Positions 9,799-44,282 of a DNA stretch of 64,000 nucleotides are shown here, piece by piece (the stretch's first letter is position 1; each line of letters begins with the position of its first letter). The DNA is from an uncultured Lachnospiraceae bacterium (GTDB taxonomy: Bacteria > Bacillota > Clostridia > Lachnospirales > Lachnospiraceae). Where the stretch lies: contig CATLAK010000003.1 in assembly GCA_949878435.1 (NCBI GenBank), positions 1 through 64,000 on the forward strand, given 5' to 3'. A model generated the notes under the pieces. That model searched no databases. It worked only from the letters and a program-made list of their open reading frames with translations, and was not told the DNA's origin. Made by a program: the position numbers and the translations under genes.

Positions 9799-9810
9799 AA
9801 TAGAATCCTG

Positions 9811-9928
9811 TCCGCAGTGTAAACCCTGCGTGAATCTGTCCGCAGTGCGAACCCTGCGTGAATCTGCCCGCAGTGCGAACTCTGCGTCAACCTATCCGCA
9901 GTGCGAACTCAAAAACCTGCGGTTTTTT
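9811..9928. repeat. 28-bp tandem repeat (about 3.5 units) ending in a hairpin
   Basis: Units begin at 9811, 9839, 9867 and 9895, each with TCCGCAGTGYRAACYCTGCG as the core, the last one truncated and merging into a hairpin in which CCGCAG (9896-9901) pairs with CTGCGG (9917-9922) before TTTTTT. A second foldback, GGGC-TTC-GCCC, lies just beyond. The array occupies the upstream region of the AraC gene; I see no gene in 9799-10298. The units are contiguous, with no spacers, so this is not a CRISPR. Confidence 0.8.
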
Positions 9929-15276: not shown

Positions 15277-16691
15277 CTTCCTTTGCAAAAAATATAGTAA
15301 AATGAAAGAAAAAGTTTTTCGCAGAGGAGGTTTTATATGGGCAGGGCACAGGAGAGAATCCGCAGAAAGCTGGAAAATAACCCCGTCATGGAGTGTAATA
15401 AGGTCAGGAACAGGTACTGTCCGGACCTGTTCCGTGATTTTGCGGATACAAAAGATCCGAGAAACCAGAGCTATACGGAGTATTCCAACGATGAACTGCT
15501 GGGGACCATGTTCTACAAAGGGATCGCCGGGATTGTAAGCATGCAGTCAATGACCTATGAGTTCAACCGGGAAGGCATAGTGGCAAATTTATTCCGGTTT
15601 ATGGGGAAAAAAGAGAAAGAATACCTCCCGCACGCTGTCACGGTCAATGAATATCTGGAGAGGCTGGCTCCGGAAGAACTGCAGAAAGTGCAGCAGAAGC
15701 AGGTTTATGGGCTGATCCGCGGCAAAGCCTTTTATGATGCCAGATTCCGGAAGAAATGGCTGGTCATCGTAGACGGGACACAGATTTATTCCGGGAGCCG
15801 GAAACTTAATGAGGGGTGTCTGGAGCGTCATTATAATAAAGGGACAGAAGAAGAAAAAGTGAATTACCACTGTGATGTACTGGAAGCAAAGCTAGTATTA
15901 GGGGAGAGCCTGATCGTGAGCATAGCCAGTGAATTCATAGAAAATAATGGGGAAGATGCTGAAAGGCAGGGGCACATGAGTGAGGAGGCACGGAAGCAGG
16001 ACTGTGAGACAAAAGCCTTTAAGAGGCTGTCCGGGAAGATAAAAAAGGCATTTCCAAGGCTGCCGGTCATACTGCTGGCAGACAGCCTGTATGCATCAGA
16101 ACCGGTAATGGGCATCTGCCGGGACAACGGGTGGGAATTCATTATCCGTTATAAAACAGGAAGCATACCGGGTATTGCGGAGGAATATGAAAGAATACCA
16201 GAAAAAGAAATGTCAGGGCATGCAGAATTCATTAACGGGATTGATTATAATGGACAGCCGGTAAATATGCTGCGTTTCTGGGAAGAGAGGATCGTAAAAG
16301 GCGTGAGGGTGCGGACGGAGTTCCAGTGGCTGACAAGCATCCAGATAACAAAAAGGAATGCGGAGAAAATAGCCGGAGCCGGAAGAAAACGATGGAAGAT
16401 AGAGAATGAAGGATTCAACCGTCAGAAGAACTGGCAGGGGGACATTGCCCATGCCTGCAGCTGGGATGCCAGGGCGATGAAGAACCATTATCTGATGGCA
16501 CAGATATCAGATATGGTAAAGCAGCTGTACGAATGGTTCTTCCTGAAGGCAGGGGGGATAAAAAAGAAGCAAAAAAATATATCTTCCGAACTGTTAGAAA
16601 GCTTTGCCCAGCAGATAACAGAAAGAGAAGATATATTTGGGGACGATATGCCTTGCATATCAACAACCTGAGTCAAGTATAGCAAAGGAAG
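15277..16691 (+). mobile_element. IS4-like insertion sequence with short inverted repeats
   Basis: A 10-bp perfect inverted repeat, CTTCCTTTGC at 15277-15286 and GCAAAGGAAG at 16682-16691, brackets the transposase gene. No target duplication is visible and the match does not extend, so these ends are tentative. The element separates the carbohydrate operon from the defence-like island. Confidence 0.5.
15337..16671 (+). CDS. DDE transposase, IS4-like
   Basis: A 444-residue transposase with a DDE_Tnp_1-type catalytic domain: first aspartate D146 in LVIVDGTQ, second D249 in ILLADSLYAS, and glutamate E356 in RWKIENEGFN, the last followed by QKNW. Helical N-terminal DNA-binding region about 1-130. 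The frame is intact with a strong GAGGAGG site 8 bases before the ATG, so the enzyme may be active. A second, IS110-type transposase at the left window edge is unrelated. The subgroup within the IS4 superfamily is not certain. Confidence 0.85.
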   Translation: MGRAQERIRRKLENNPVMECNKVRNRYCPDLFRDFADTKDPRNQSYTEYSNDELLGTMFYKGIAGIVSMQSMTYEFNREGIVANLFRFMGKKEKEYLPHAVTVNEYLERLAPEELQKVQQKQVYGLIRGKAFYDARFRKKWLVIVDGTQIYSGSRKLNEGCLERHYNKGTEEEKVNYHCDVLEAKLVLGESLIVSIASEFIENNGEDAERQGHMSEEARKQDCETKAFKRLSGKIKKAFPRLPVILLADSLYASEPVMGICRDNGWEFIIRYKTGSIPGIAEEYERIPEKEMSGHAEFINGIDYNGQPVNMLRFWEERIVKGVRVRTEFQWLTSIQITKRNAEKIAGAGRKRWKIENEGFNRQKNWQGDIAHACSWDARAMKNHYLMAQISDMVKQLYEWFFLKAGGIKKKQKNISSELLESFAQQITEREDIFGDDMPCISTT

Positions 16692-28752: not shown

Positions 28753-29055
28753 ATGATCGATACATTCAAACCCTTTTTAATCTATTGGACCGTCCTTATA
28801 CTAGGATGCCTATTCTTTTTCCTATGCCCTTTTATCCTTTTCCTCCTATTCCCGCTGCTAATTATCATCATCCCCACCTGGGCTGTCATCGTTTACCTCA
28901 TAGGCAGTTCCATCCAACAAAGAAGCGCCCTAAAAGGAATCGGCAAAAGAATCGCCACATCCTGCCTATGCTCCCTTCTAACCATCCTGGTTCTCCCCAC
29001 CGCCTTCCTCCTAGAAGACGCCATAAGCTGGGGAACCATCTCATCCCCCCGCTAG
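28753..29055 (+). CDS. Small hypothetical membrane protein
   Basis: A 100-residue, very hydrophobic protein with about three membrane spans (roughly residues 9-31, 33-52 and 66-86) and a short basic loop (QQRSALKGIGKRIA) between the second and third. AGGAGG lies 6 bases before the ATG, so translation is likely. I do not recognise the family. It is followed directly by a large palindromic element. Confidence 0.6.
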   Translation: MIDTFKPFLIYWTVLILGCLFFFLCPFILFLLFPLLIIIIPTWAVIVYLIGSSIQQRSALKGIGKRIATSCLCSLLTILVLPTAFLLEDAISWGTISSPR

Positions 29056-29081: not shown

Positions 29082-29452
29082 GCAATGTCAGTCAGTTAAG
29101 CCGGAGCGCCGGCAGGACGGCAGTGGCTCGGAGTAGGAAGCGGACCGGGCACAGGGGGACAGCTTATCCTATCGTTTCAAGTCTCCGCGAAAAATCGGTA
29201 ATTTCACTTACAGAATGTTGAATCCGCAGGGCAAAATCGCCATGGATGGCGATTTTAGGAGTCAAGCGGCACGGATGCCGCCCTGACTCCGACCCGACCT
29301 CATTGAAACACCTGTATACATTCTGTTAGTGAAATCCGATTTTGAGAAGAGACTTGAAACAATAGGATAAGCTGTCCCCCTGTGCCCGGTCCGCTTCCTA
29401 CTCCGAGCCACTGCCGTCCTGCCGGCGCTCCGGCTTAACTGACTGACATTGC
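29082..29452. repeat. Palindromic structured element, copy 1 (103-bp arms)
   Basis: The left arm 29082-29184 and right arm 29350-29452 are reverse complements with one difference in 103 bases (a C/T that would still pair as G-U in RNA). Inside are two further hairpins: AAAATCGCCA-TGGA-TGGCGATTTT (29233-29256) and GGAGTCA...TGACTCC (29258-29290) with an inner GCGGCA-CGGA-TGCCGC. Inner flanks (GAAAAATCGGTAATTTCACT and its partner near 29330-29345) pair imperfectly. The element fills the space between two convergent genes. A related copy lies at 43958-44282. Confidence 0.95.
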
Positions 29453-29457
29453 CACCA

Positions 29458-31308
29458 CTACTCCTCTTCCAGCACCTCCCAAAGCAAAAGCGGCGCCAGC
29501 GCCCACAAGAACACCACATATCGCACCAGATAAGTAGGTCCCAAAACCACCGTAAGCCACACAAGCCCCGGCAGCATAAACGGCACTGCCTTCGCCCAGC
29601 ATTTGCAATAACACATAAACCCTAAGCCAAACGCCGTCACCCAGAACAAGAACCCCGGCGAGAACAGCATCGACACCACCGGAATCTTCTGCTGTGCAAT
29701 CTCCAGCGACATCCTTCGGTAACACTCGTCAAGCCATGGTATCTTGCTCTCCCTCGTCCCCGGCTGTTCCACCTCATAGCCAAAGTAAGAACTGTCCCCG
29801 TAAGTAAAGGTAAATACAGAATTTCCGCGGTACACATCGATCACCGTATCCGGATACCAGAAACCATAAGAAGTCATGAACCACGCATTTAAATAAGTAA
29901 ACGGATGCTCCGTCCCCCACTTAAACCATAGTTTGAAAAAACCAGAAGGATCCTCTGCAAAAGCTTCATTATGAAAGCTGATCTTCACCCCGTCAGACAC
30001 CTTGGGCGTATACCTTACAAGAGCTTCCTCAGGCAGATATCTGTAAAGAATCTCCTTTTCTTCCTCAGTAAGCGTCTCCTTCTCATCCGCATACACCCTT
30101 GCCATCTGAGAAATGGGCACCGTGAGCATTTCCTGATTCTCCGAATCATCCGCCTGCAGCAGCGCGGCAAAACCTGCATTGACCGCCAGATACGCCGCTA
30201 TGATTACGCCGAAGCAGACTGCCGTCTTTCTCCGAAAGCCTTTTAAATAAAATAAAATTACCACAGTAAAGACCAGAAAAGCATAAAATCCGTTGTGCCG
30301 AAGCAGCATCATGCACAGGGAGGCAATTGCAAACAGGCAAACCGCTCCCTGTCTTTCAAAAAACCGTCCCGGCTCCTTACATAATTCTTTGAGGAGGACC
30401 ACCATAATCAGCAGCATCCCCGTAAAAAGCCCATCCTTCGCTGAACACAGGGCGAACATGACCAGCACCGGACAAAGCCCAAAATACAGGGTAAGAATCA
30501 CCCGGTACCACTTTGCTGCTCCCCAGCTTTTCAGTTTCTCGATAAACCATGCAAAAATACCTGCCATCAAAGTCATTTGAATCACCGTGTAGCAGGCGAT
30601 TCCCAGATTATAGGAACCAGTCAGTTTATAAACTGCATGTAGAATACCTCCCAGCAAAAGCACATGCATCAGCGGATGATGGGTGGAAAAATTCCTTGTC
30701 ACCACCTGCAGATACTCATCCTGGGCATCATATACGAAGAATCCCGGATAAACCGCCAGAAAAACCGGAAGATACATAAGCAGAATCGCCCCTGCCGTAA
30801 GAAAGAAACTGCGGCGGTCCTTAGAACCGGTTTCCTGCCCCTTGGGACGTTTCAAGTTGGATGCCCCGCTGCTTATTGGACCTGGGTATTTGACTTTCCA
30901 CTCCAAAAGCCTGTCCCAGAAATACCGCACAGTCAATGTAACGAAAACCGTCAGCGCCAGTATTCCAATCCACATTTTCCCCTGCGTAAAAGGAACCCAC
31001 CCTGTGAGATTAAGCTGTGCGCCGAAAGCCATGCAGATGCTGAAAAAAAGACCGAACAAAAGCGGAAAGAACCACTTAGCGCCTTTCCCCTCAAAGCCGG
31101 TCTTCAAAATCCTATATGCCAAAGTCCAAAGTGCCAGAAAGAAAAACACGGGCACAATGCTGTTGGTATACCAAAGCCTGTCCCCGGTAACAGGAAGCAT
31201 CCAGCCAAACCCACAGACTACCGCAAAGGACAAAAACGCCGACACTGCCATCCGCCCGGCAGTGGATGCTTTCAAATATGCACTTATGCTCTTGTCAGTT
31301 TTCCTCAT
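29458..31308 (-). CDS. Multi-spanning membrane protein, DUF6020-like, likely glycan-related
   Basis: A 616-residue protein with about 12 membrane spans, a short acidic loop after the first third (YPGFFVYDAQDEYLQVVTRNFSTHHPLMH) and a long extracytoplasmic loop about residues 375-520. The loop placement and the YDAQDE acidic motif are like GT-C-fold glycosyltransferases, and I recognise the protein as DUF6020-like. The substrate is unknown. It overlaps the upstream GT2 gene by 14 bases and is the last gene of the leftward glycan block. Confidence 0.65.
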   Translation of the reverse strand: MRKTDKSISAYLKASTAGRMAVSAFLSFAVVCGFGWMLPVTGDRLWYTNSIVPVFFFLALWTLAYRILKTGFEGKGAKWFFPLLFGLFFSICMAFGAQLNLTGWVPFTQGKMWIGILALTVFVTLTVRYFWDRLLEWKVKYPGPISSGASNLKRPKGQETGSKDRRSFFLTAGAILLMYLPVFLAVYPGFFVYDAQDEYLQVVTRNFSTHHPLMHVLLLGGILHAVYKLTGSYNLGIACYTVIQMTLMAGIFAWFIEKLKSWGAAKWYRVILTLYFGLCPVLVMFALCSAKDGLFTGMLLIMVVLLKELCKEPGRFFERQGAVCLFAIASLCMMLLRHNGFYAFLVFTVVILFYLKGFRRKTAVCFGVIIAAYLAVNAGFAALLQADDSENQEMLTVPISQMARVYADEKETLTEEEKEILYRYLPEEALVRYTPKVSDGVKISFHNEAFAEDPSGFFKLWFKWGTEHPFTYLNAWFMTSYGFWYPDTVIDVYRGNSVFTFTYGDSSYFGYEVEQPGTRESKIPWLDECYRRMSLEIAQQKIPVVSMLFSPGFLFWVTAFGLGFMCYCKCWAKAVPFMLPGLVWLTVVLGPTYLVRYVVFLWALAPLLLWEVLEEE

Positions 31309-43957: not shown

Positions 43958-44282
43958 GCATCGGCAGGACAGCTGTGACGTGGGGCAGGCGTGGATCAAT
44001 CAGGCACAGGGGGCAGCGTATCCTATCGTTTCAAGTCTTTGCGAAAAATCGGCAATTTCACTTGCAGAATGTTGAATCCCTAGGGTGAAATCGCCATGGA
44101 TGGCGATTTCAGGAACCGCGCGGCATGGATGCCGCTGGTTCCGACCCGACCGCCCTGAAACACCTACACACATTCTGTTAGTGAAATCCGATTTTGAGAA
44201 GAGACTTGAAACGATAGGATACGCTGCCCCCTGTGCCTGATTGATCCACGCCTGCCCCACGTCACAGCTGTCCTGCCGATGC
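43958..44282. repeat. Palindromic structured element, copy 2 (81-bp perfect arms)
   Basis: Arms 43958-44038 and 44202-44282 are perfect reverse complements over 81 bases. The 163-base centre holds AAATCGCCA-TGGA-TGGCGATTT and a hairpin GGAACC...GGTTCC (44112-44142) with inner GCGGCA-TGGA-TGCCGC. The centre is clearly homologous to that of the element at 29082-29452; the outer arms differ between copies although each pairs with itself. It lies between SdpI and pseF; the rest of 43856-44309 holds no gene. Confidence 0.95.

Follow-up and report, generated by a model that had tools for sequence, protein, structure and literature searches.

A long palindrome around an RNA motif

The window analysed here is a stretch of 64,000 nucleotides from an uncultured Lachnospiraceae bacterium (contig CATLAK010000003.1, positions 1 to 64,000). 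It contains two palindromic elements of one family, and the first of them lies between two convergent reading frames (Table 1). The window also holds three copies of a repeat at a spacing of 28 bp (9808-9908; CTGTCCGCAGTG...) and, at 15337-16671, a transposase-like ORF matching Pfam DDE_Tnp_1 and DDE_Tnp_1_assoc.

Table 1. Palindromic elements of the window, their parts and the neighbouring reading frames
Feature	Position	Strand	Remarks
Whole palindromic element, copy 1	29082..29452	+	Old type I (IS4-end) MITE-like element with TwoAYGGAY
5' arm, 103 nt	29082..29184	+	Outside the RF01731 match; 102/103 paired with 3' arm
3' arm, 103 nt	29350..29452	+	Pairs with 5' arm
Left terminal repeat CAATGTCAGTCAGTTAAG	29083..29100	+	Diverged form of IS4-type end CAATGTCATTAAGTTAAG
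Right terminal repeat, inverted	29434..29451	-	Sequence comparison
TwoAYGGAY RNA core (RF01731)	29185..29349	+	83.4 bits; gathering score 43
Hairpin 1, stem AAAATCGCC/GGCGATTTT	29233..29256	+	Loop ATGGAT at 29242-29247
Hairpin 2, outer stem GGAGTCA/TGACTCC, inner stem GCGGC/GCCGC	29258..29290	+	Loop ACGGAT at 29271-29276
Left neighbour, 100-aa ORF	28753..29055	+	No Pfam match; stop 26 bp 5' of the element
Right neighbour, 616 aa, Pfam DUF6020	29458..31308	-	Stop codon 5 bp past the element
Second palindromic element of the family, copy 2	43958..44282	+	No recognisable transposon ends
TwoAYGGAY core of copy 2	44039..44201	+	79.5 bits

The first-pass annotation had described copy 1 as a nearly perfect palindrome with two further hairpins in its centre, and this is what we find. 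The arms pair at all positions except one, and the inverted repeat continues into the outer core, reaching 117 nt at 96% complementarity. The predicted RNA fold has a free energy of -302.8 kcal/mol (z -31.5) and none of 100 shuffled sequences folded as well; for copy 2 the corresponding values are -259.4 and -26.6. The centre and inner arms are conserved between the two copies (87-89% match), and the exchange of the stem GGAGTCA/TGACTCC in copy 1 for GGAACC/GGTTCC in copy 2 is confirmed. The single difference between the arms had been thought to keep pairing in RNA. This was mistaken: on the plus strand, which is the strand of the RNA motif, it places a C opposite an A and is unpaired in the fold, and a G-U pair could form only in a minus-strand RNA.

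Both centres match the Rfam family TwoAYGGAY (RF01731) above its gathering score, with both loops present. TwoAYGGAY is known but poorly understood. A table of the 2010 discovery paper classes it as a probable RNA that is probably not cis-regulatory (PMC2864571), and a passage of a 2014 paper predicts, from motif matches, that it binds CsrA (PMC4333381). It has a clan in common with CsrB (CL00106), as seen by scanning E. coli csrB. The passages naming TwoAYGGAY in a limited literature search do not mention mobility or mobile elements, and no paper found in that search, in the parts consulted of PMC4383904 and others, ties the motif to them. The mobile palindromes described below give the motif a physical setting. 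The suggestion that the element is a structured RNA stands insofar as its centre belongs to a recognised RNA family; a role as RNA finds no support in this genome (see below).

Could such a palindrome be a chimeric inverted duplication made during assembly? In the close relative G008, whose flanks are 99.3% (left) and 96.2% (right) identical to those of the window site over 1200 bp, the two contigs bearing the flanks both terminate inside the palindrome, which is where an artefact might be suspected, with sequences that match the element. The assembly of G013, which is independent, has an element of different sequence at this site, and other copies with long arms have arm sequences of their own, unlike one another. 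Given the G013 element and the G008 contig ends, an assembly artefact is very unlikely, and we regard this reading, which the earlier description had named as fatal to its claim, as refuted for practical purposes.

Copies, transposon ends and insertion sites

The element is one of many. We found at least 57 copies in its own genome (G000; 3.4 Mb, 86.2% complete) and analysed 48 A-type copies, like those of the window, and 9 divergent B-type copies; these counts are a lower bound, since C2:29717, C3:145341, C5:53235 and C3:238127 were found later and stand outside them. Copies with arms of at least 33 nt span 232-565 bp, most of those analysed span about 270-565 bp, and across the family arms are mostly of 50-200 nt. 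A search of 98 genomes (own genome included) showed that the motif recurs, in 22 of them at E <= 0.001, 20 of these above the cut-off; it occurs in none of 14 control genomes. Phage and plasmid collections gave no match to a young copy, and viral contigs gave 0 matches. The exact pattern of one core type matched 23 stretches of genome contigs, all from Lachnospiraceae. Pairs of copies lie head to head a few hundred bp apart on G000 contigs C14, C15, C17, C32, C38 and C42 (L013, L065, L078, L008, L014, L079). Two head-to-head elements also flank the same gene beside rnpB in G000 (L010, C2:220474-223788) and in G019 (L032), and these pairs are A-type in one species and B-type in the other.

How did these copies spread? 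Young, mutually similar copies of about 370 bp have CAATGTCATTAAGTT or a close variant at their ends, and the terminal 18 nt of C6:32183 (CAATGTCATTAAGTTAAG) are exactly the left ends of insertion sequences in G019 and G035. Insertion sequences with such ends carry an IS4-family transposase (three proteins, L151, L155 and L149, above the NCBIfam NF033592 cut-off). They are flanked by exact 10-bp duplications in G019, G035 and G008, and also in the own genome, where the duplication is read across two contig ends. This last copy is split between the end of C13 and the start of C33 (L148 and L154), with the transposase matched in two frames. C6:32183 itself is flanked by an exact 10-bp target duplication, and the corresponding site in G008 is empty, with the 10 bp present once. 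At C38:10151 the duplication is 9/10, and at C2:29717, where we read a decayed 8/10, the site is empty in both G013 and G008. These three are the only copies, among those looked at, that combine such ends (type I) with a duplication of at least 8/10. Only C6:32183 and C38:10151 were accepted from the scan that scored target duplications in 55 of the 57 copies. Several of the higher scores were rejected as palindromic words inside the arms.

The ends of the window copy (CAATGTCAGTCAGTTAAG) are a diverged form of these IS4-family ends. It has no target duplication at its ends and no empty site in the relatives searched. Many copies lack recognisable ends, and there are derivatives without a core (C5:84423-84594, C2:13636-13710). 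A second type of end (type II, GTAACAGTTCAGCC) carries the same kind of core at C5:53235-53564, C3:238127-238456 and other loci (L288, L285), with an exact 8-bp duplication at C5:53235. In our reading, both types also occur in other genomes, type I around a core in G018 and type II around one in G001. As a source of the second type we considered IS66 and rejected it, the ends being absent from 15 IS66 stretches, which may miss some ends of the insertion sequences.

The idea of a non-autonomous mobile hairpin is therefore borne out for the family by the IS4-type ends, the 10-bp duplication and the empty site, but it reaches the window copy without a duplication or a known empty site of its own. 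The comparison of empty and filled sites proposed earlier gave the same picture, with empty sites for C6:32183 and C2:29717 and none for the window copy. We consider it probable that the palindrome belongs, as an old copy, to a multi-copy family of non-autonomous MITEs of gut bacteria with unusually long arms and a TwoAYGGAY core, and that its arms are copied onto each other over time. An IS4 transposase would move the element in trans.

Shared sites, matched arms and flipped cores

Some copies occupy orthologous spots in other species despite differing in arms or core type. By their flanks, 34 of 119 elements of other genomes map into stretches around G000 copies, where two elements of a relative can match one G000 element (C6:85193 does so twice in G019 and twice in G035). 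Among these 34, 29 lie within 250 bp of the G000 element, 20 of them within 60 bp, and 5 lie at 500 bp or more. Uniform random positions would place 1.4 within 60 bp, an expectation that is too favourable to us because it treats intergenic and other positions of the same pieces alike. Cores have the same orientation in 22 of the 29 near elements and the opposite one in 7. At 5 of 9 shared spots G019 has a B-type element where G000 has an A-type one, and simple decay does not account for orthologous spots with different core families. We do not claim strict orthology for every shared spot, several of which have unlike arms.

Shared positions could also arise by repeated, independent insertion into hot spots, without inheritance. 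The five A-type copies facing B-type ones in G019 fit this explanation, and in four of them the similarity of the arms does not stand out from that of other copies (ranks 5, 10, 15 and 38 of 54). A further pair with an inverted core, at C15:18995, ranks only 4 of 54. However, in 4 of the 10 pairs examined both borders coincide to within 7 nt, and rank 1 of 54 is reached by one inverted pair (C11:45188), by both B/B pairs and by the arm tips of C2:222051, where the similarity to G019 is limited to the outer 38 nt or so. Hot spots are thus a tenable explanation of the shared positions, though on balance a somewhat improbable one.

Within a copy, the arms resemble each other more than they resemble anything else. 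Among 47 copies whose arms reach 70 nt or more, the own partner was strictly the nearest sequence for 93 of 94 arms, with a mean identity of 0.95 against 0.80 to the best other. The first-pass annotation had concluded that the fold is kept, not the sequence. As a pattern this is correct: among 36 aligned cores, 20 of 24 core pairs carry changes on both sides. As evidence of selection on RNA it is poor, since there is no clear G-U excess and each arm behaves like a copy of its partner. Selection on the RNA of one strand should favour G-U pairs, and the arm mismatches give no such sign (G-T 81, A-C 82, transversions 52, against 5281 paired cells), with the caveat that core flips, if they occur, blur the strand signal of this test. 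The count covers 53 of 57 copies, leaving out three with short or no arms and one at a locus end. By our count, the core hairpins of the 36 aligned cores give 9 G-U and 7 A-C cells. The proposed count of compensatory changes thus yields many both-side changes without a clear wobble excess in arms or core, and we do not favour RNA compensation as the main cause of the matched arms. In the same 53 copies, 5' arms are rich in G (43% G, 20% C), with 3' arms mirroring them, and the first unpaired arm position is A...C in 21 and G...T in 5.

Comparisons at single sites bear on how the arms change. Across the full 5' arm the window copy and that of G008 differ at one position, and so they do across the 55 nt of the 3' arm that are visible; these two differences fall at the paired positions 29134 and 29400. 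Compared with G013, 21 columns are co-changed (12 transitions and 9 transversions), 8 are changed in one arm and 73 are the same, and two one-base indels are, in the alignment, common to both arms. Yet the arms at the G013 site rank the window copy only third among 54 G000 copies, two others fitting slightly better, and what looks like co-change at this site could have come from replacement by another copy. Three near pairs with G008 (C5:41214, C13:19144 and C5:116679) have no co-changed column and have 7, 15 and 3 columns with arm mismatches. Hence, arm correction is not instant. At three sites (C11:45188, C15:18995 and C5:82146) the core of G013 is inverted while its flanks are not. Of the first two, whose arms were ranked, only C11:45188 has arms that are clearly the same.

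An exchange within the palindrome, either by template switching at the hairpin or by recombination of one arm with the other, could produce both near-identical arms within a copy and flipped cores between conserved flanks. A precedent exists: in the part consulted, PMC8604942 reports that template switching yields both homogenised arms and inverted spacers, and PMC8794818, likewise in part, reports that it maintains RNA hairpins. If arms and flips both stem from such exchange, pairing is maintained at the level of DNA and need not reflect selection on RNA. DNA-level template switching or conversion accounts for the pattern of arms and cores better than RNA compensation does.

Still, something beyond self-copying holds the core, since its loops keep GGA on one strand and, in our reading of the aligned A-type cores, the outer core retains an unpaired T-T. 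In hairpin 2, CA.GGA.G is nearly invariant among the 36 aligned cores while the stems vary. The first 8 pairs of hairpin 1 have no G-U and 2 A-C among 632 in 79 distinct A-type cores, a set chosen by loop and stem, so that loop invariance and part of the stem pairing are built in.

Possible functions and related systems

What could retain the core? One explanation is that the element is a CsrA-binding regulatory RNA, with the long stem kept by selection on RNA pairing and mobility incidental. In a core-sense transcript, the two C-AYGGAY-G loops on the same strand could perhaps bind CsrA, which would make the element a portable decoy or a local regulator. The near-invariant loop of hairpin 2 amid varying stems, the clan common with CsrB and the CsrA binding predicted in the passage of PMC4333381 argue for it. 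Against it stand the lack of a clear wobble excess and the surroundings of the copies. Searches with PF02599 and PF02623 found neither CsrA nor FliW in G000 (86.2% complete) or in G034 (incomplete), although both of these incomplete genomes carry many TwoAYGGAY copies. CsrA is present in 20 of the 22 motif-bearing genomes but also in 56 of the 76 without the motif, which is not specific enough for co-occurrence to prove a link. A sigma-70 consensus scan over 150 bp at 56 copies showed no excess of promoter-like sites directed at the element (2 left flanks reach a score of 10 or more, where shuffling predicts 2.0), and no promoter of its own was seen. Of the 25 A copies with an antisense right neighbour, our count places 22 no more than 57 bp from its stop codon, and read-through from there would give the wrong strand. 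Without CsrA, FliW or a promoter in view, an RNA role has no support here. We judge this explanation unlikely, even if a decoy role may be possible in relatives.

A hairpin at transcript ends is an equal rival to the decoy. The element could be retained as a 3'-end or insulator hairpin that stops transcription or shields the ends of mRNAs, a role also ascribed to REP/BIME elements. In the 25 A copies whose right neighbour is antisense, the median distance to its stop is 20 bp by our count. To the right of the element, 15 of 56 copies have promoter-like sites directed away from it (score at least 10), which could serve the downstream genes, and positions are conserved between species. However, other MITEs also accumulate near gene ends, because insertion elsewhere is harmful. 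By our count, copies close after a stop are less frequent with sense left neighbours (5 of 16), and all these contexts come from crude, mechanical ORF calls. We hold a 3'-end role to be rather doubtful.

A bolder view, which we put forward tentatively and think improbable as a whole, is that the palindromic loci are long-lived sockets: the site would be inherited across species, while arms and core are rewritten time and again, and it would be kept for a CsrA-binding or transcript-end function. Self-templating would rewrite the arms, whereas the core would change by inversion and by swaps, both among TwoAYGGAY families and across the two types of transposon ends. If this were true, the covariation in the TwoAYGGAY family would be produced largely by DNA copying. 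In any case, both-side changes in families of this kind may stem from DNA self-copying and not from selection on RNA, and should be read with this in mind. With tens of copies per genome and with related species available, arm correction and spacer inversion lend themselves to measurement in nature, and one can begin to test whether transposons spread CsrA-binding sites.

These elements resemble several known systems and differ from each. REP/BIME palindromes are likewise intergenic and near gene ends, but their unit is a short palindrome of 20-40 nt. The elements here are far longer, with IS4 DDE ends, and copies with arms of at least 33 nt fall outside that size range. The young type I copies have the same ends and 10-bp duplication, in the same genus, as IS4-family insertion sequences (NF033592) and their MITEs. 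Unlike these, they have arms of about 100 nt in place of short terminal repeats, an RNA motif as cargo and no transposase gene. With CsrB/RsmY-type decoy RNAs of clan CL00106 they have in common paired GGA hairpin loops closed by C-G, but they show no promoter of their own, occur as tens of dispersed copies and reside in a genome where CsrA was not found. The Rfam family RF01731 has the same two AYGGAY loops and models 168 positions, whereas in these elements the motif occupies the middle of a mobile palindrome. Finally, inverted repeats corrected by template switching show homogenised arms and inverted spacers as well, but, in the parts consulted, PMC8794818 and PMC8604942 deal with genes for RNAs and with short repeats of yeast coding sequence, whereas here the process would act on a family of scattered copies, most with arms of 50-200 nt.
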